From positions 1 to 28,378 of IMG/VR virus record IMGVR_UViG_3300023178_000203: a stretch of 28,378 nt of DNA. One strand, written 5' to 3'. This document shows positions 3,500-28,378 of this stretch, piece by piece; the first letter of the stretch is position 1; each line of letters begins with the position of its first letter. Below the pieces are notes generated by a model that saw only the letters and a program-made list of their open reading frames with translations, searched no databases and was not told where the DNA came from. The DNA comes from a virus. The position numbers were made by a program, and so were the translations under genes.

Positions 3500-3510
3500 T
3501 ATATTTATAT
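3500..3510 (+). promoter_or_regulatory. Putative phage late promoter element, copy 2
   Basis: TATATTTATAT, 24 nt upstream of the ATG at 3535, in the 53-bp gap after the lysin gene. Same motif as the other five copies, and the only intergenic gap of this size within the 420-16233 tail block. Confidence 0.6.
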
Positions 3511-16263: not shown

Positions 16264-16274
16264 TATATTTATAT
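16264..16274 (+). promoter_or_regulatory. Putative phage late promoter element, copy 3
   Basis: TATATTTATAT in the 69-bp gap after the giant gene, 28 nt before the ATG at 16303. The rest of the gap is A-rich. An AAGGAA ribosome-binding-like sequence lies at 16288-16293. Confidence 0.6.
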
Positions 16275-18235: not shown

Positions 18236-18246
18236 CATATTTATAT
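18236..18246 (+). promoter_or_regulatory. Putative phage late promoter element, copy 4
   Basis: CATATTTATAT, differing from the other copies only in its first base, 16 nt before the ATG at 18263 and directly after the terminator. A GAGGAA sequence follows at 18248-18253. Confidence 0.6.
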
Positions 18247-19401: not shown

Positions 19402-19412
19402 TATATTTATAT
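19402..19412 (+). promoter_or_regulatory. Putative phage late promoter element, copy 5
   Basis: TATATTTATAT, 19 nt before the ATG at 19432 and only 3 bp after the stop of the previous gene. It is followed by the strong ribosome binding site AAAGGAG (19418-19424). Confidence 0.6.
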
Positions 19413-19624: not shown

Positions 19625-20197
19625 TTGAGTTTACTTAAAAATTGTGCTCAGAAATGGGCATTTATTCATATTCCTAAAACAGGTGGAACTTCCATAAGTT
19701 CTGTCCTTCACGAAATAGACGGGACAGAAAAAGTTACAATGCACGATTCTGTTCGTGCTTTAGATGAGGTTAAGGATTACTTTATTTTTACATTTGTAAG
19801 AAATCCTTTCACACGATTACAATCAGCTTACCAACATGGTGTGAGAAAAAATGAATACACAACATCCTTTTCAGAATTTTTAAAATCAGATTTATCATCT
19901 AATATTTGGATGATGCCTCAATATTATTTTGTTACTGCTGGTTCTTCTGAAAATAAAAAAGTTTCATTTATAGGAAAATATGAAAATTTAAAAGAAGATA
20001 CTTTAAAAATATTTAAAAAACTCAATATAGATAAACAGTTACCTCATCTAAATAACAATCCTATTTACGAAAGACATCCAGGTTTAAAACAAGAAGATTA
20101 TTATAAATCTTTTTATACCGAAGAGTGGATGAAGGATTGGGTAAGAGAAAGGTATGAAAATGATTTCAAAATTTTTAACTATGACATGGACATATAA
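19625..20197 (+). CDS. Sulfotransferase family protein
   Basis: 190 aa with the two hallmarks of PAPS-dependent sulfotransferases. The 5'-phosphosulfate loop is HIPKTGGTS (residues 15-23), with Lys18 as the key binding/catalytic residue. The 3'-phosphate site is FVRNPFTRLQSAYQ (residues 57-70), with Arg59 and Ser67. This form is closest to the Golgi/carbohydrate sulfotransferase group, which transfers sulfate from PAPS to sugar hydroxyls. Total length is short but both ends look complete. The start is TTG at 19625; no in-frame ATG precedes the P-loop and no ribosome binding site is visible, so translation may depend on the upstream gene. Substrate is unknown; host surface glycan or a virion glycan are possibilities. 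Confidence 0.85.
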   Translation: MSLLKNCAQKWAFIHIPKTGGTSISSVLHEIDGTEKVTMHDSVRALDEVKDYFIFTFVRNPFTRLQSAYQHGVRKNEYTTSFSEFLKSDLSSNIWMMPQYYFVTAGSSENKKVSFIGKYENLKEDTLKIFKKLNIDKQLPHLNNNPIYERHPGLKQEDYYKSFYTEEWMKDWVRERYENDFKIFNYDMDI

Positions 20198-20651
20198 AGG
20201 AAAACTAATAACTGAATTATCAGATATGCCCGAAGATGTATTTGGGTTTATTTACAAAATAACAAATGGTAAAACTGATGAATACTATATTGGTAAAAAA
20301 CAAGTAGTTTCGGTTCGTAAAAGAAATTTCGGTAAAAAAGAAATTGCTGCTCTTGAAGATAAGAGAATGAAAAAATACGAAATGGTTACCAAAGAATCGG
20401 ATTGGAAAACATATCGTTCGTCCAATAAAGAAGTAAAGGGTTGGTTTGATGAAAACGAAAAAGCTCTTAATGAAGATAGAAGAGATGATATCAATAATCA
20501 ACTTAAATTAGAAATACTTCGTTTCTGTTCAAATAAAAAATCACTCACATACTATGAACTACAAGAACAGTTTGCACATAACGTTCTTGCAGATGAAGAT
20601 TCACTAAACGATAATCTTCTTGGAAAGTTTTTCAGAAAAGACTTGGAATAG
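20181..20651 (+). CDS. GIY-YIG nuclease-like protein
   Basis: 156 aa from the ATG at 20181. GFIYKITN (residues 22-29) and YYIGKK (35-40) supply the GIY and YIG strands, followed by a basic segment with candidate catalytic Arg46/Arg48. The later DWKTYRSSNKEVKGWF resembles the conserved region of phage GIY-YIG proteins. The family includes homing endonucleases (T4 Seg proteins) and repair nucleases; here it is a small free-standing member and mobility is not shown. I prefer this start because the MTWTYKGK opening looks like a family N-terminus. An ATG at 20154 in the same frame would add 9 residues and lengthen the overlap with the sulfotransferase gene from 17 to 44 bp. Confidence 0.78.
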   Translation: MTWTYKGKLITELSDMPEDVFGFIYKITNGKTDEYYIGKKQVVSVRKRNFGKKEIAALEDKRMKKYEMVTKESDWKTYRSSNKEVKGWFDENEKALNEDRRDDINNQLKLEILRFCSNKKSLTYYELQEQFAHNVLADEDSLNDNLLGKFFRKDLE

Positions 20652-20691
20652 TTAAATTTTTTTTGTATATTATTGTATAAGGTATATTGTA

Positions 20692-21345
20692 ATGAAAAGT
20701 AAAATTTGGTTTTTTGGTGATAGTGTAACTAAGGGGGTTGGTTGTTTAAAAGGAGACCCATATTATCAAGAAGATAAAAAAATATTTACACAAATAGTAG
20801 CTGATAAATTAAACATGGTGGTTAAAGATGTATCTATTGGTGGTGCATCTACCGATTGGATACTTCATCAAATTTTAGTTTCTATTAAGTATATGAAACC
20901 GCATGATATTGTAGTTGTATCCAATACACTACCTTGGGGTACTATTATGTTTAATAATGAAAAAGATAAATTATTATCAATTAATGATTTATGGATAGCC
21001 AATAATGATTTTTTATATAACAGTAAAGAAGAAAAAGATATCATTTTCCAATTCTCAAATTTAAAAAGAAAATACAAAAAAGCTTTTTATGAAAAATTCG
21101 AAAAAGAAATAGATGCATTAAAACCAATATTAAAAAAATTTGGAGTAGAGTTATATCAATGGGATATTAGAATTTGGTTTGATGATGAAAATTTAAAACC
21201 TTATGATACTGAATATGAAAGTATAATGAAAGTTACAAATGAAAAAATAAAAGATGGACATTTTTCATATGGTGCTCATGAAAAAATAGCTCAACATATA
21301 CTAAACAAGATTGAGATTAGTAAAAAAGATAAAACTTTTATATAA
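20692..21345 (+). CDS. SGNH/GDSL-like hydrolase
   Basis: 217 aa. Block I is WFFGDSVTKGVG with nucleophile Ser11. Block II Gly is in VSIGGASTDWI (residues 48-58). A candidate block III Asn lies in VVVSNTLPW. Block V is DGHFSYGAHEKIAQHI, with Asp188 and His190 (or His196) as the remaining triad candidates. The family hydrolyses ester bonds, often acetyl groups on sugars or acyl groups on lipids. No signal peptide is visible, so it acts inside the cell or on the virion. Together with the sulfotransferase two genes upstream it forms an accessory group that may modify or de-esterify surface polysaccharide. The spacing of block V is slightly compressed (D.H), so activity is not certain. Confidence 0.72.
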   Translation: MKSKIWFFGDSVTKGVGCLKGDPYYQEDKKIFTQIVADKLNMVVKDVSIGGASTDWILHQILVSIKYMKPHDIVVVSNTLPWGTIMFNNEKDKLLSINDLWIANNDFLYNSKEEKDIIFQFSNLKRKYKKAFYEKFEKEIDALKPILKKFGVELYQWDIRIWFDDENLKPYDTEYESIMKVTNEKIKDGHFSYGAHEKIAQHILNKIEISKKDKTFI

Positions 21346-21401: not shown

Positions 21402-22346
21402 ATGCTATCACACCACGAAAAGCAATCGGTTATAAACATCTTAGATGATGTATTAGGACCTGGTACATCTTTAAAGGGGGATGAACAAGCACATTATTGT
21501 CCTTTTTGTCATCACCACAAAAAGAAGTTACAAGTAAATCTACAAACTCAACAATGGCATTGTTGGGTATGTGATGCTAAAGGAAAACGCATCCAACGGT
21601 TATTAAAAAGATTGCATGTAGATTCTCGAAAGTTAAAAAAGATATACGAAATCTATGGTGATGATTATGTTGTATATAGTAACAATACCGAAGATGAAAA
21701 GGTAGAGTTAAGGTTACCTAACGAGTTTTGTTCACTACTAAAAGAACCAAAGGGAAAAATAAACCCTCTGTTCAGAAAGGTAATGGAATATGCAAAACAA
21801 AGAGGAATTACCACAGAAGATATTAGAAGATATAATATCGGGTATTGTGATACTGGTCATTATGCCAATCGTATTATTATTCCATCTTATGATTCTGATA
21901 ATCGACTCAATTACTTCATCGCACGTTCTGTATTCGATGAGGAAAAATTTAAGTATAAGAATCCGCCGGTTTCGAAAAATGTTATCATGTTTGAAAACCA
22001 AATAAATTGGAATGAACCAATTACCTTAGTAGAGGGAGTTTTTGATGCAATGGCAGTGAAGAGAAATGCAATCCCTCTACTTGGTAAGTTTGTACCAAAA
22101 ACTTTAAATGATACTATATATAAAAAGGGTGTTAAGAGTATAAACATTTTACTCGATGAAGATGCTCAAGAACAAGCGTTATATTACACTATGCAATTCC
22201 AAAATCAAGGAATCACTACAAAAAATATTAAACCATCTGAAAAAGATGCTGGTGAAATGGGGTTCTCCCAAGTAAATAAAATTCTAAAAAATACAGAAGA
22301 AACTAACTTTAGTGATATAATATCGCAAAAATTATTAGGTTTATGA
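21402..22346 (+). CDS. 61: DNA primase, DnaG/gp61 type
   Basis: 314 aa (T4 gp61 is 342 aa). A zinc ribbon is formed by Cys33, Cys36, Cys54 and Cys57 (YCPFC...WHCWVC). A central segment at about 130-190 contains the RNA-polymerase-like basic region. The TOPRIM fold carries Glu211 in LVEGVFDAMAVKR and the acidic pair Asp252/Asp254 in ILLDEDAQ, which coordinate catalytic metal. The enzyme makes RNA primers for lagging-strand synthesis with the replicative helicase; no helicase domain is fused here. A host-type promoter lies directly upstream. The stop overlaps the start of the recombination gene by 4 bp (ATGA), so both are translationally coupled. It could also be called a generic phage primase; the T4 gene number is by functional analogy. 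Confidence 0.88.
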   Translation: MLSHHEKQSVINILDDVLGPGTSLKGDEQAHYCPFCHHHKKKLQVNLQTQQWHCWVCDAKGKRIQRLLKRLHVDSRKLKKIYEIYGDDYVVYSNNTEDEKVELRLPNEFCSLLKEPKGKINPLFRKVMEYAKQRGITTEDIRRYNIGYCDTGHYANRIIIPSYDSDNRLNYFIARSVFDEEKFKYKNPPVSKNVIMFENQINWNEPITLVEGVFDAMAVKRNAIPLLGKFVPKTLNDTIYKKGVKSINILLDEDAQEQALYYTMQFQNQGITTKNIKPSEKDAGEMGFSQVNKILKNTEETNFSDIISQKLLGL

Positions 22347-25300
22347 TAATAAACAAAGTTTATCATTTGGCAGATTTACATATTAGAAATCTCCAAAGAC
22401 ACAAAGAATACAAATTAGTATTTAAAAAATTCTTAAAACAAGTAAAAGAAGATAAAATCGAGGATTCCCTCATTTATATTGCTGGTGATATTGCTCACGC
22501 AAAAACAGAGATGTCACCCGAACTCGTACACGAAATAAGTTGGTTTCTCACCGAGTGTGCGAAGTTAAGAGAAACTGTGTTAATCACAGGTAACCACGAT
22601 TGTAACTTAAACAACTCACATAGATTAGATGTTCTTACTCCGATTATTGAAAATCTTGGAAATAATCGTATTCACTATCTTAGAGATACTGGTGTCTATA
22701 ATATCCATAATCTTACTTTCGTTGTCTATTCTATATTGGATGATAAAGAAAACTGGCCAAATGGTAATGATGTAGAGGGAGAAAATAAAATTGTTTTATT
22801 TCATGGACCAGTAAACAAAGCACAAACTGATATTGGTTATACCGTTTCATCTAACTCATTTCAAGTGGGTATGTTTGATGGATTCGATATGGCCATGTTG
22901 GGTGATATACATAAAAGACAAACATTTGGTGAAGGATATGAGTGGGTTGCCTATGCAGGTTCAATGATTCAACAGAATCATGGAGAACTGCTTGAAAATC
23001 ATGGTTACTTACTTTGGGATATACCCACTCGAACCTTTACCGAACATCATATACATAATGATTATGGATTCTTAACTGTTGATGTGGTTGATGGTAAGAT
23101 TCCAAAATGGGTGTATGATGAAGTTGGTACTAAACTTCCAAAGTATCCAAGATTAAGATTGAGATTTACTAATACCGAAGCAAGTGATATGAAACGATGT
23201 ATCACAGAACTAAAGAAGTTATTCAAAGTTGCTGAAGTTACGGTAACAAGAACCGATACAATCGGACAACTAAAAACAAATAAAAAGGTAAACAAAAACA
23301 TAGTTGGTGATGTTAAAAATGAAACCTTCCAAAACTCACTTATTAGAGATTACTTAGAAAGACAATACCTATTAGAATCAGATGAATTAGATAAGATAGA
23401 AGAAATCAATACAGAACTAAATGGACAAATAGATACATCGGATATTGCCGGTAATATTTTATGGACACCAAAATCTTTTGAGTTCTCTAATATGTTCTCG
23501 TATGGTGAAGGTAATTTAATCCGATTTGATAAAGCACAAGGTATCATGGGTATCTTTGCTCCTAATGCTTCAGGTAAATCTTCTATGTGGGATGCACTCT
23601 CTTTTTGTATCTACGATAAGACATCTCGTACAACCTTTGCTAAGAATGTTTTAAACAATCGTAAGGATAAGTTCTATTGTAAGTTTAACTTCGAGATAGA
23701 TGGGGTAGATTACTTTATTGAGAGAAGAGCTAAGTATGTTAGAAAAGGAACATCGGTTAAAGTAGATGTAGATTTTTGGAAAGAAGATGGTGGAGTTATA
23801 GAATCACTTAATGGAGAACAAAGAAAAGATACAAATAAGAATATCGAAAAGTTCTTAGGTAAGTTTGAAGATTTTGTTTTAACTGCTCTTTCCCTACAAG
23901 GAAACAATGCACTCTTTATTGATAAATCACAATCAGAAAGAAAAGAAATACTTTCTCAATTTATTGGAGTAGATATTTTTGATAAATTATATCAAAAGGC
24001 TGCAGATGAGAATCGAGATAATGCAACACTTATCAGAAAATTCAAGTCCGATGATTTTACTCAGAAGTTGGCCGACATTAGTGAACAATTAAAAACCGAC
24101 AAAAACGAATACAAACTTTTAGAGTTAAATCAAAAATCTTTAAAAGAAGAAGAGGATTTACTAAATAGACAAATCATTAAATTAAACGAGAAAATCGTAA
24201 AGTTAAATGCTGATAGTGGTGTTTCAATAGAAGAATTAGAAAAAAGATTGAAAAACCTTGAAACCAAAAAAGAAGAACTCTTAATAACAAAAGGCTCGGT
24301 TCAAGAAAGAATCACATTTAGAGAGGAATTACAAATCACTTTAGATGAAATACTTGACCAATTTGATGAAGAAGATTTAGAAGAGGGGATTGGTAAGTTA
24401 AAAGATGCAAAGGAAAAGTTAAGAGATGTAGAATCTTCTATCGATAAAATCAATATTAAAAAAGATTCTTTGTATGAAAGAAAAGACCATTTAGATAAAC
24501 ACAAATATAATGAAGAATGTGATATCTGTATGGAAAACTCACAAACTATTTTAGAAGAAAAAGAAAAGGTAGAATCAGAAATATCAGAGTATGAAGATTT
24601 GTTTCAAGAAAATGATAAGATTCGTTTATCTTTAATGTTATTGATAGATTCATTAAAGGGGTATGAAGATGAGTGGAGTAAATATCAAGAAGCAAAAGAA
24701 AAAGAAGATAAACTTGATAGAGAAATTTCTCAACTTATCAACAAGTTATCAACAACTGAAACTGAAGAAATTCGTTTAAGTACACAAATTGACCAACAAG
24801 AGAAGTTAATCGAAGAATATTACAAGAACGAAGAACAAATCAAGATAAATAAACAAATCAGAGAAGAGATTACAGGTGTTCGTGATAAACTCAAAATTGT
24901 TAAAGATGATTTAAAATCTGTTAATGGTGATATTCTTAAATTAAATGGAAAAGTTTCAGCACTTCAAAATCAAAAAGAAACCATTGAAGATAGAATCCAA
25001 GAAGTAAAAGAATTAGAAGAACAATCTAAACTATTTGATTTTTATTTGAATGCACTTTCTAAAGATGGTGTATCGTATGAGTTAATCGAGAAATCCCTAC
25101 CAATGATTGAAGGTGAGGTGAATAATATCTTAGCACAAATCGTAGAGTTTGGAATGCAATTAGAGATTGATGGTAAGAACATCAATGCGTATCTTGTATA
25201 TGGAGACCAGAGATGGTCTTTAGAGATGTGTAGTGGTATGGAGAGATTTATTAGTGGTTTAGCCATTAGAGTTGCTCTAATCAATGTATGTAACCTACCA

Positions 25301-25501
25301 CGACCTAACTTCCTTGTGATAGATGAAGGATTTGGTACTTTGGATAGTGAAAACCTACAATCTTTATTTATGTTGTTTACATACCTTAAAACTCAGTTTG
25401 ATTTTGTTATGGTAATATCACACATCGATTCTATGAGAGATGTTGTAGATGGTCTTATTGAGATAAAGAAAATAAATGGATTCTCAAATGTTAAGTTTTA
25501 A
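22343..25501 (+). CDS. Fused Mre11-like nuclease and Rad50-like ATPase (gp47-gp46 fusion)
   Basis: 1052 aa in one uninterrupted frame. The N-terminal part (about 1-340) is an SbcD/Mre11/gp47 phosphoesterase: HLADLHI (Asp11, His13), AGDIAH (Asp49), TGNHD (Asn84, His85, Asp86), FHGPV and LGDIHKRQ. The part from about 372 is SbcC/Rad50/gp46: a Walker A variant APNASGKSS (406-414), a long coiled coil with the zinc hook CDIC (Cys726, Cys729), a second coil, ABC signature SGMER (964-968), Walker B FLVIDEGFGTLD (Asp994, Glu995) and H-loop VISHID. The complex resects DNA ends for recombination-dependent replication and degrades host DNA. No in-frame ATG lies in the linker at a position that would restart a complete gp46. 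Separate gp47 and gp46 in T4 total about 900 aa. Confidence 0.93.
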   Translation: MIINKVYHLADLHIRNLQRHKEYKLVFKKFLKQVKEDKIEDSLIYIAGDIAHAKTEMSPELVHEISWFLTECAKLRETVLITGNHDCNLNNSHRLDVLTPIIENLGNNRIHYLRDTGVYNIHNLTFVVYSILDDKENWPNGNDVEGENKIVLFHGPVNKAQTDIGYTVSSNSFQVGMFDGFDMAMLGDIHKRQTFGEGYEWVAYAGSMIQQNHGELLENHGYLLWDIPTRTFTEHHIHNDYGFLTVDVVDGKIPKWVYDEVGTKLPKYPRLRLRFTNTEASDMKRCITELKKLFKVAEVTVTRTDTIGQLKTNKKVNKNIVGDVKNETFQNSLIRDYLERQYLLESDELDKIEEINTELNGQIDTSDIAGNILWTPKSFEFSNMFSYGEGNLIRFDKAQGIMGIFAPNASGKSSMWDALSFCIYDKTSRTTFAKNVLNNRKDKFYCKFNFEIDGVDYFIERRAKYVRKGTSVKVDVDFWKEDGGVIESLNGEQRKDTNKNIEKFLGKFEDFVLTALSLQGNNALFIDKSQSERKEILSQFIGVDIFDKLYQKAADENRDNATLIRKFKSDDFTQKLADISEQLKTDKNEYKLLELNQKSLKEEEDLLNRQIIKLNEKIVKLNADSGVSIEELEKRLKNLETKKEELLITKGSVQERITFREELQITLDEILDQFDEEDLEEGIGKLKDAKEKLRDVESSIDKINIKKDSLYERKDHLDKHKYNEECDICMENSQTILEEKEKVESEISEYEDLFQENDKIRLSLMLLIDSLKGYEDEWSKYQEAKEKEDKLDREISQLINKLSTTETEEIRLSTQIDQQEKLIEEYYKNEEQIKINKQIREEITGVRDKLKIVKDDLKSVNGDILKLNGKVSALQNQKETIEDRIQEVKELEEQSKLFDFYLNALSKDGVSYELIEKSLPMIEGEVNNILAQIVEFGMQLEIDGKNINAYLVYGDQRWSLEMCSGMERFISGLAIRVALINVCNLPRPNFLVIDEGFGTLDSENLQSLFMLFTYLKTQFDFVMVISHIDSMRDVVDGLIEIKKINGFSNVKF

Positions 25502-25652
25502 CCCTTAAAACATTCTGAGGTTTAGGCTGTTCAATTCTTTGTTTAATTAATCGTTCAATCAACCCACTTTTCGAATATCCATGTTCACAGCAATACTCGT
25601 GTAGTTCTTTATACAATTCTCTTTTTATTTGTATTGTAGTATATTTTCCCAT
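25491..25652 (-). CDS. Ribbon-helix-helix DNA-binding protein
   Basis: 53 aa, the only convincing minus-strand gene. It reads MGKYTTIQIKRELYKELHEY, continues CCEHGYSKSGLIERLIKQRI and ends NVLRVKT. This is the classic CopG/Arc/MetJ layout: an antiparallel beta-strand (YTTIQIKREL, residues 4-13), helix A (13-24), the G-Y-S turn and helix B (27-40). Such proteins bind DNA as dimers through the strand pair and usually repress their own promoter. A perfect 8+8 bp inverted repeat lies 2 bp upstream of its ATG. Its 3' end overlaps the last 11 bp of the fusion gene in convergent orientation, and it is divergent to the fibre gene. No Shine-Dalgarno sequence is seen. No toxin gene neighbours it, so an antitoxin role is unlikely; a viral transcription regulator is more likely. 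Confidence 0.82.
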   Translation of the reverse strand: MGKYTTIQIKRELYKELHEYCCEHGYSKSGLIERLIKQRIEQPKPQNVLRVKT

Positions 25653-25654
25653 AG

Positions 25655-25672
25655 TATATAGATTTCTATATA
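25655..25672. promoter_or_regulatory. Inverted repeat, candidate operator
   Basis: TATATAGA-TT-TCTATATA, a perfect 8+8 bp inverted repeat with a 2-bp spacer, between the divergent ribbon-helix-helix gene and the fibre gene. Its edge is 2 bp from the minus-strand start codon. A matching half-site TCTATAT recurs at 25724-25730, overlapping the fibre start codon. Likely binding site for the adjacent regulator, by inference. Confidence 0.55.
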
Positions 25673-25698
25673 ATATATATTAACAAAAAAAAGTTTAA

Positions 25699-25709
25699 TA
25701 TATTTATAT
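25699..25709 (+). promoter_or_regulatory. Putative phage late promoter element, copy 6
   Basis: TATATTTATAT, 19 nt before the ATG at 25729. On the minus strand the same bases contain TATAAATA, the T4 late -10 sequence, pointing at the ribbon-helix-helix gene, so this site could be read in either direction. Confidence 0.55.
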
Positions 25710-25728: not shown

Positions 25729-28378
25729 ATGGCTATAATTAAAAAATTTTCACCCTTTCAAAACTTATCATCCTTTCAAGTATTTTTAAATGATACTGAA
25801 AGAACTTCTCAGTACTTTAAAATTACAGAGTTTGAAGATACGCTTACTGGTGGTAAGAATGGATTTTTAATTGAAGGTTCTGAATATTTAAAAGAATCAA
25901 CAGAAGTAAAAGTAGAATTACTTGATGTTGAAAACAATCCTATATACTTTGAACCTGGTGATGGTATTCCCGAATATTACGAAGGTATCTCTAAATTAGT
26001 ATCAGTTCATGTTTATGATGATACTCCGATTGGAACTGGTAAAATTACAATACTTGGTGAACTTAAAAATTATATAGATGAAAATGGTGCGGTTGTTCCT
26101 GTTCCTGATGAGTGGAAGGGAATCTATAATGTAAAGTGGGAAAGAACCTTCCAAGTAAATAAAAATTTAAATAACGAAACTATTGTTCGGTTTTACAAAA
26201 GACCTATTGTTAATATAACAGAACTTGTAAAACCAATATTTTCTAAATCAATACCAACAGTAACCGATACAGGATATGCACATGGTATTTCTGAAACACC
26301 AATTGATGGAACTGATATTAGAAATTGGAGAACTGGTACTATATATAGATTAAGAAGAACGAGTGGTACTTGGGATAGAGATGTAGATGAAAATACTATT
26401 ACGTTTACATCACCAAGTTTTACCGCTAATATCGTAGAAGTTTTAAACGATACAGATGTTTTGGTTGATGTACCTTATACGATAAATAATTTAGTATCAA
26501 ACTTTACATCAGGCTCATATTCGGTTTCTTATGCTGATTTTCAAAACGAAGTTATTGGTGAATCCACCTTAACAGGTTCTTTTGCTAAAATTGATATTAC
26601 ACAACTAAAAACTTTTGTTGGTGATGTAGCAAGAGTAAAGGTATTTAGAAAATCAAGAAACTCTGTTGGTGATTTTCAATTTGTACAAGAATCAAAATTA
26701 GAATCAACAGAATTACTTCGTGATGTAACAACACCTTCTAATACTGAAATTCCTTATGGAAGATTTGATGAATCAAACTTATCTACATATTGGATTACAT
26801 CATCAGCTGACCATGAAGTATCAATAGATTCTTCTGTTTTATCTCAGGCTGTTAAGTTTGATTATGATTCAGTTCAAGGTGGTGTACAAAGATTAATTAC
26901 ATCTCAATCTTTTTCAATATCTAAAGATGTAGAATATACATTAAACTTTAGAACTCTTTTAAGTGGTAGTTTAGATGATAGTGGTAAAAGTGTAAGAGCA
27001 TTCTTTAGTTCTTCAAACTTTACACAAGATTTCCTAACAGCAAGTGGTTCAGCTATTTATAGAACAAGACAAAATGTATCACAAAATATATTATCAGAAA
27101 ATACAGGAGATGCACATTTAGTATTTGAAGTAAAAGGTGATGATTGGTATGTTTCAAATGTAAGTTTAAAAAATGCACAAGATACTTCTTTCTCACCAGA
27201 TGAATTTACTTTAATACAAGATATTCCAAGAAAACTAGCATCTGAAACTTTTGATTTCCGTTTTGAGTTTTATGATATAAACAACAATTATATTCCTGTT
27301 GATGTAACTGCAGTTGGAGTATTTGATGGTGGTAATGATTTCCCAACAAGTGGTAAATTACTAACATTTGAATCAGATAGAAATGCATTTAGATTTACAA
27401 GTGGTTCAATAGGAAGTCCACCATTTCAACAACTACAATTTAAAGTAACTCAAAATAACCTAACAGGTTCGGTGTCATTTGCTTCATCTGCATTTGATGA
27501 AGATGGTAACTATATTGACCCATCGAGTTATGGTGGTACATATCCTGGTACTCTTACATCGGTTACACCAGCTGGTGCTATTTTACGAATTGCTGATTTT
27601 AGTGGTAGTGATGAATCTGTTATAGTAGGTTCTATTGTTTATACCGCCTCTTTAGAAGGATTGGAAGAATTTGAAACTGTTTATAGATTAGAAGATGGAG
27701 ATAATGCTCCTACCTTATTGGTAACTTCGAATGCAAATCAGTTTACATATGAACCAACTTCATTAATTCCAAAACCAGTTGGGCAATCAATTACAGTAAG
27801 AGCTCAGAGAAAAAATTTAGCATCACTTGTAACACCAATTACGGTGAATAGTGGTAGTAACAGACCTGCACTAACTTATGTAGATACTGTTGGTGGAATT
27901 GATACTTATACAATTTCTGCTACAGAATTTTCATCATCCTTCTCAGCAAACTCATTTGATGAAGTAACTTATCAATTTACTGGTTCTGATGTTTTTGGTA
28001 TTGAACAAACTGATGAAATAACTTTATCTAAGGTAGTAAACTTTGATGGTGTTTCTATAACTCTTTCTAATGAATCAACTGCATTTAGGTCAAATGGTCA
28101 AGGATTAATTTTAGATTCATTTGATAGTGGAGATGGTGAAGTTGAAGTAAGAATTGCAGATAAAGAAATAGACCATAGTAATGGATTATCATCACCAAAT
28201 ACATTTGATATTGTTTCTGCAACGGCAACGAATGTAACAGAAGCTTATTCATCTTACTTAACAAATCAGTATGGTATTAACGCAATGAGTGCAGATAGTG
28301 GTTCTCTTGTATTAAATATTTCATATCTTGCAGGTGATAATTCAACTACTCAATCTTTCCAAAAGAAAGTAAATTATA
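25729..28378 (+). CDS. Large tail fibre/appendage protein, 3' end outside window
   Basis: Open from the ATG at 25729 to the window end: 883 complete codons with no stop seen. The protein begins MAIIKKFSPFQNLSSFQVFL. Its first 190 residues include SKLVSVHVYDDTPIGTGKIT and KWERTFQVNKN, a module that looks like the attachment domain of phage baseplate/fibre proteins. The rest is beta-rich with many Ser/Thr/Gly turns; about 280-640 is mixed and may hold a carbohydrate-binding sandwich. About 768-835 (ITLSNESTAFRSNGQ...FDIVSATATN) resembles a repeat-like domain seen in fibre proteins of T4-related phages. Likely host-recognition or virion surface protein. A late-promoter-like element lies directly upstream and no ribosome binding site is visible. 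Confidence 0.8.
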   Translation, partial: MAIIKKFSPFQNLSSFQVFLNDTERTSQYFKITEFEDTLTGGKNGFLIEGSEYLKESTEVKVELLDVENNPIYFEPGDGIPEYYEGISKLVSVHVYDDTPIGTGKITILGELKNYIDENGAVVPVPDEWKGIYNVKWERTFQVNKNLNNETIVRFYKRPIVNITELVKPIFSKSIPTVTDTGYAHGISETPIDGTDIRNWRTGTIYRLRRTSGTWDRDVDENTITFTSPSFTANIVEVLNDTDVLVDVPYTINNLVSNFTSGSYSVSYADFQNEVIGESTLTGSFAKIDITQLKTFVGDVARVKVFRKSRNSVGDFQFVQESKLESTELLRDVTTPSNTEIPYGRFDESNLSTYWITSSADHEVSIDSSVLSQAVKFDYDSVQGGVQRLITSQSFSISKDVEYTLNFRTLLSGSLDDSGKSVRAFFSSSNFTQDFLTASGSAIYRTRQNVSQNILSENTGDAHLVFEVKGDDWYVSNVSLKNAQDTSFSPDEFTLIQDIPRKLASETFDFRFEFYDINNNYIPVDVTAVGVFDGGNDFPTSGKLLTFESDRNAFRFTSGSIGSPPFQQLQFKVTQNNLTGSVSFASSAFDEDGNYIDPSSYGGTYPGTLTSVTPAGAILRIADFSGSDESVIVGSIVYTASLEGLEEFETVYRLEDGDNAPTLLVTSNANQFTYEPTSLIPKPVGQSITVRAQRKNLASLVTPITVNSGSNRPALTYVDTVGGIDTYTISATEFSSSFSANSFDEVTYQFTGSDVFGIEQTDEITLSKVVNFDGVSITLSNESTAFRSNGQGLILDSFDSGDGEVEVRIADKEIDHSNGLSSPNTFDIVSATATNVTEAYSSYLTNQYGINAMSADSGSLVLNISYLAGDNSTTQSFQKKVNY

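Follow-up and report, generated by a model that had tools for sequence, protein, structure and literature searches.

What does a regulator of 53 amino acids control when its gene runs against the prevailing gene direction and stands back to back with a giant presumed tail-fibre gene? We addressed this question in a stretch of 28,378 nucleotides from a viral contig, analysed over its whole length (the window), where the first-pass annotation had noticed the small gene and proposed that it acts as a switch between gene classes.

The regulator gene and its neighbours

The open reading frame at 25491-25652 (minus strand) encodes a 53-aa protein, MGKYTTIQIKRELYKELHEYCCEHGYSKSGLIERLIKQRIEQPKPQNVLRVKT. 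Its description as a clear CopG/Arc-type DNA-binding protein was borne out by matches to the ribbon-helix-helix (RHH) family Pfam RHH_1 (21.9 bits against a cut-off of 20.5, E 1.7e-4) and to PHROG 3180, an Arc-like repressor (E 6.6e-6). The RHH proteins of relatives stayed below the Pfam cut-off in a genome-wide six-frame search and do match the RHH profile built in this analysis; with this family HMM, the protein was found in 113 of the fetched loci. Simple ORF calling gave 18 plus-strand genes and 1 minus-strand gene in the window, and 290 and 5, respectively, in a 276-kb relative, where most minus-strand ORFs appear spurious. The RHH gene is the sole clear minus-strand gene, as had been annotated. 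The AlphaFold monomer was of low confidence (pLDDT 66.5), with helices at residues 11-24 and 28-40 and no strand formed, and was dropped as a structure search query because it was too weak. When profiles were compared with the PDB, the only matching chain was 2kel, and the match was marginal (E 0.0038). The protein would contact DNA as a dimer through a beta-sheet, a trait of the RHH family, and at this locus the beta-strand residues covary with the core of the putative binding sites. An LRV motif at the C-terminus shows no variation among the 18 closest relatives (alignment A1), and the linker preceding it is variable. Searches of sequenced phages with two RHH alleles (that of the window and one AM-type) gave no match, and no relative was found in the bacterial genomes searched.

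Relatives were collected by four scans of viral contigs, using the RHH protein, the exact repeat upstream of its gene, the N-terminus of the presumed fibre and the C-terminus of the recombination nuclease; the contigs are metagenomic and mostly incomplete. Gene order is near-universal: a SbcCD fusion gene (plus), the RHH gene (minus), a gap and the giant presumed fibre gene (plus), with extra genes in some relatives between SbcCD and RHH or between operator and RHH. The SbcD-SbcC fusion (22343-25501, plus strand; Pfam and PHROG matches) is a recombination nuclease resembling T4 gp47/gp46 in one chain of 1052 aa, with a metallophosphatase at residues 5-191 and an ATPase from about residue 382. 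Such a fusion is also present in Microcystis phage Mel-JY01. The giant gene starts at 25729 (plus strand) and runs off the window at 28378; in relatives its product has about 1800-2000 aa. Pfam and PHROG searches with this protein gave no match, and it is presumed to be a tail fibre from its size, position and context. Weakly related fibre genes occur in Mel-JY01, where no annotated gene opposes the SbcCD direction at the corresponding place, and in one uncultured phage. Elsewhere in the window, a sulfotransferase, a SegE-like GIY-YIG endonuclease and a GDSL-lipase-like gene lie in a row (19625-21345) between the tail and replication genes. The host group is likely Bacteroidota: genes of the 276-kb relative include one for a CarboxypepD_reg-Plug-TonB barrel, a SusC-like TonB-dependent receptor (L059:16051-18759), and one for a GroEL (L062:14616-16232) whose closest relatives in cellular organisms belong almost exclusively to this group.

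The surroundings of the gene bear on two of its possible roles. In the window the RHH and recombination genes overlap convergently by 11 bp, and an antisense effect on the latter had been suggested. We rejected antisense control, since this neighbour is replaced in many relatives and the overlap is lost once other genes intervene. Many RHH proteins are antitoxins, and the gene might accordingly belong to a toxin-antitoxin pair. However, the constant toxin partner gene of a type II antitoxin was not found, as the region downstream holds the SbcCD stop codon in the window and assorted genes elsewhere, and we regard this role as very improbable.

Tandem boxes at a fixed distance from the fibre promoter

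A perfect repeat, TATATAGA-TT-TCTATATA, occupies 25655-25672 upstream of the RHH gene, 2 bp from its start codon, and searching the window for further operator sites returned this single match. The DNA is AT-rich (31% GC) and shuffled sequence contained on average 0.71 repeat matches when 3 mismatches were allowed, so the perfect repeat by itself is only moderately surprising. It was accepted as real because it is conserved at the same gap in relatives. The first-pass annotation had called it the regulator's own operator-like inverted repeat; it is indeed perfect and conserved, but the relatives reveal a tandem arrangement of two 8-bp boxes with a 10-bp period, each an imperfect match to TCTWWAGA. 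Box 1 (TATATAGA, 25655-25662) and box 2 (TCTATATA, 25665-25672), 10 bp apart, were defined by repeat search and aligned gaps. Several relatives have direct instead of inverted repeats (TCTATATA-AT-TCTATATA and TCTATAGA-TT-TCTATAGA), and more distant ones have three copies (TCTTTAGA-TT-TCTTTAGT-TT-TCTAATAT). The arrangement of two or three equally spaced boxes is that of a tandem-operator RHH repressor, for which at least two are expected. A half-site on the fibre start codon, also annotated originally, is absent as a conserved feature from the aligned gaps.

The boxes were present at this gap in every readable relative that keeps the RHH gene, amounting to 60 of 60 non-redundant gap sequences, of which 57 were scored by machine and three that the script missed (L024, L083 and L099) were fitted by hand. 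For 11 diverged gaps, two-box scores averaged 9.6 out of 12, compared with 5.8 ± 0.3 (maximum 6.9) in dinucleotide shuffles, and a single spacing was shared by 10 of the 11, whereas at most 7 shared one in 500 shuffles. The repeat was thus not lost where the gene was kept: the register of the boxes is conserved, they occur together with the gene and, as described below, they covary with the protein.

On the far side of the boxes lies ATATTTATA (25700-25708, plus strand), the promoter element of the fibre gene. The window contains six copies of (T)ATATTTATA, at 389-397, 3501-3509, 16265-16273, 18237-18245, 19403-19411 and 25700-25708, all intergenic and on the gene strand. The 276-kb relative has 51 copies on the plus strand, of which 41 fall between genes, compared with an intergenic share of about 10% of the sequence, and most are located 17-30 bp upstream of start codons. 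Several copies immediately follow terminator-like hairpins. The genes behind them are largely structural: tail tube and baseplate hub genes follow directly, and portal and tail sheath genes are one gene further on. An EM model placed about 104 sites of this type in 382 upstream regions. ATATTTATA is therefore best read as a phage-wide, late-type promoter element. Read in reverse complement, its coding-strand core TATTTATA gives the T4 late octamer TATAAATA. A gp55-like late sigma factor (phrog_234, phrog_12791) gave no match in six large contigs, where it may be too diverged, and a literature search for the motif found no papers. We also considered whether TATAAATAT in the gap could be a late promoter of T4 type for the RHH gene. 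This was rejected: its six copies in the window all lie between plus-strand genes but on the minus strand, and are really the ATATTTATA elements of those genes.

Boxes accompany ATATTTATA at 3 of 89 sites in three contigs, all three at this gap. It is hardly credible, then, that the repeat is a chance product of AT-rich DNA, as the shuffle matches might suggest, or a common part of late promoters: its register is conserved in 60 gaps, it beats the shuffles, and boxes are absent at the other 86 of the 89 sites. With its operator confined essentially to this gap, the regulator appears to be local, and the RHH strand bears the late genes' promoter element in a weaker version; the proposed switch between gene classes is not supported.

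The boxes are separated from the fibre promoter element by a spacer (25673-25699) whose length is conserved and whose sequence is not. In the 57 machine-scored gaps the distance from the last box to the element was 27 bp in 49, 26 bp in six and 29 bp in two, the latter both being diverged alleles that each have a possible 27-bp register as well. Other distances vary: the fibre leader measures 5-30 nt and the interval from RHH to the boxes -5 to 716 nt. The promoter-like element on the RHH strand (25672-25682, minus strand) is weak in the window (PWM, 2.8 bits) and reaches up to 14 bits in relatives, where its position is variable; it shifts within about 12 bp, between -3 and about +10 as measured from the box end. 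It is mainly because one distance is fixed while several others are free that we think the operator acts on the fibre promoter.

Autoregulation is the rule among small RHH proteins (PMC5569661), and the boxes here adjoin or overlap both the promoter element and the start codon of the RHH gene. The regulator could thus control its own operon only, the fibre gene being merely adjacent. However, the fixed distance is the one to the fibre promoter, and both the RHH start and the RHH-strand element shift. Moreover, where inserted genes displace RHH from the boxes, the boxes remain at the fibre promoter (L020, L077, L083, L151/L149/L169 and L165). Autoregulation on its own is for these reasons rather unlikely. 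In L020 the insertion directly behind the operator is an SGNH/GDSL-like gene (L020:3474-4178; weak match), and ATGRGAAAATAT is present both at the operator and where the RHH gene begins, which looks like a duplication of the start. Across a large group of uncultured phages, the RHH gene, the tandem boxes and the fibre promoter appear to be joined in one fixed unit of control.

Co-occurrence and joint exchange of regulator and boxes

A clade comprising L129 and L132-L135 (support 100/99 in the SbcCD tree) has no RHH gene, and its four readable members keep CATATTTATATGT-ATG before the fibre gene and have no boxes. In the same tree, which rests on a few long branches, the RHH type switches several times. 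In three pairs of near-identical phages (L141/L142, L120/L123 and L138/L146) the RHH gene and the boxes have been replaced jointly, the exchanged segment being bounded by the SbcCD stop codon on one side and approximately by the fibre promoter element on the other. L141 and L142, for example, show 98.5% identity as far as the SbcCD stop codon and 96% beyond a point close to the fibre promoter element, whereas their RHH proteins are 38% identical and their boxes differ. The beta-strand and the box core switch together in these exchanges, TTIQ with TCTATA versus KM[ILV]Q with TCTTTA; in one KM case, the swapped allele of L138, the boxes are degenerate. Across the collection, YTT[IL]Q proteins had TCTAT- in 52 of 52 boxes beginning with TCT, YAM[IL]Q proteins had TCTTTA in 43 of 51 boxes, and YKM[ILV]Q proteins had mixed boxes, TCTTTA being the commonest (6/14). 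These counts are non-independent; the independent evidence comes from the three exchanges. Since protein and sites were exchanged jointly between near-identical phages, we consider them matched partners. Conserved register, co-occurrence and joint change thus agree with the annotated regulator having its own operator, in a position from which it could act on either of the divergent genes.

Swapping of regulator and operators as a unit between near-identical genomes resembles the exchange of immunity regions in lambdoid phages. Unlike in lambdoids, no tyrosine integrase was found in six contigs of 123-289 kb, and there was no sign of lysogeny or immunity; a temperate cycle was not indicated by this search. 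Small co-directional ORFs lie behind the swapped RHH alleles (L141:5502-6110 and L138:5494-5952) and may be a mobile element driving the exchange. A GIY-YIG identity of this ORF, suspected by eye, was dropped as a Pfam search gave no match.

Possible mode of action and its significance

Our favoured explanation, which we hold to be probable, is that the RHH protein represses its own gene and, in addition, governs when or how strongly the giant fibre gene is expressed. RHH dimers would bind the two or three TCTWWAGA boxes between the back-to-back promoters, probably one dimer per box. With the boxes just downstream of, or against, the weak RHH-strand element, binding would shut off the regulator's own gene. 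The low score of this element in the window (2.8 bits) counts against the explanation, as do the degenerate boxes of L138, the low confidence of the AlphaFold monomer and the identification of the fibre gene by size and position. As the boxes also lie 27 bp upstream of the fibre element in fixed helical phase, the same binding would modulate the fibre promoter from about -42, assuming that ATATTTATA is the -10 position. We infer binding, dimer stoichiometry, autorepression and the fibre effect from the sequence features described above.

The position upstream of the fibre promoter is an unusual one for a simple repressor. This placement and the strict phase would suit a fibre activator, that is, an RHH protein which contacts RNA polymerase from about -42 to -69 and represses itself, as in a bidirectional switch of the lambda-CI or AvtR kind. 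There is precedent in AvtR of an archaeal virus, which both activates and represses (PMC5569661). At the same time, the fibre element has a near-consensus sequence (PWM, 5-14 bits) and persists in the RHH-less clade, where boxes are missing, and we regard activation as possible but doubtful; this estimate overlaps with that for the favoured explanation, activation being one of its two possible signs. As far as sequence goes, repression and activation of the fibre gene look alike. Our guess leans slightly towards delay or restraint, because the element is near-consensus and kept in regulator-less phages.

The nearest functional precedent is SvtR of the archaeal virus SIRV1 (PDB 2kel), an autorepressor that binds, in addition, the promoter in front of a tail-fibre structural gene (PMC5569661). 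Both are small viral RHH proteins combining self-repression with a fibre promoter, the combination being predicted in our case. SvtR differs in acting on archaeal TBP/TFB promoters through an imperfect inverted repeat at several genomic sites, whereas the present locus has a divergent gene pair, tandem boxes at a single site and a promoter element of a bacterial virus. In an archaeal spindle-shaped virus (SSV), the RHH protein F55 binds two tandem TAGA-containing repeats, ATAGATAGAGT (PMC5569661), but belongs to another virus group, has other target genes and is of no demonstrated sequence relationship to our RHH protein. With Arc of phage P22 and CopG the protein shares its family (Pfam RHH_1, PHROG Arc-like repressor). 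The half-sites of the arc operator are TAGA-type; unlike Arc and CopG, our regulator is associated with 8-bp boxes of 10-bp period beside the presumed tail-fibre gene of a T4-like phage. The met-boxes of MetJ are tandem 8-bp palindromes binding one dimer each; the present system differs from MetJ in box sequence, in its 2-bp spacers and in that no metabolic co-repressor is evident.

Fibre genes decide host range at attachment, and to our knowledge dedicated control of a single fibre gene has hardly been described for T4-like phages. Here, the geometry linking the 53-aa regulator to its operator and to the fibre promoter stays strict across strongly diverged phages. A further idea, which we consider improbable, is that the cassette serves lytic phages for allele-specific interference. 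The regulator of a resident phage would then act on co-infecting relatives of the same box type through their fibre promoter, and swapping the regulator-operator pair would benefit a phage, as with the immunity regions of temperate phages. The natural exchanges of matched pairs offer ready tests of how beta-strand residues read bases and, if they have been selected, immunity-like specificity swapping would extend to apparently lytic phages.
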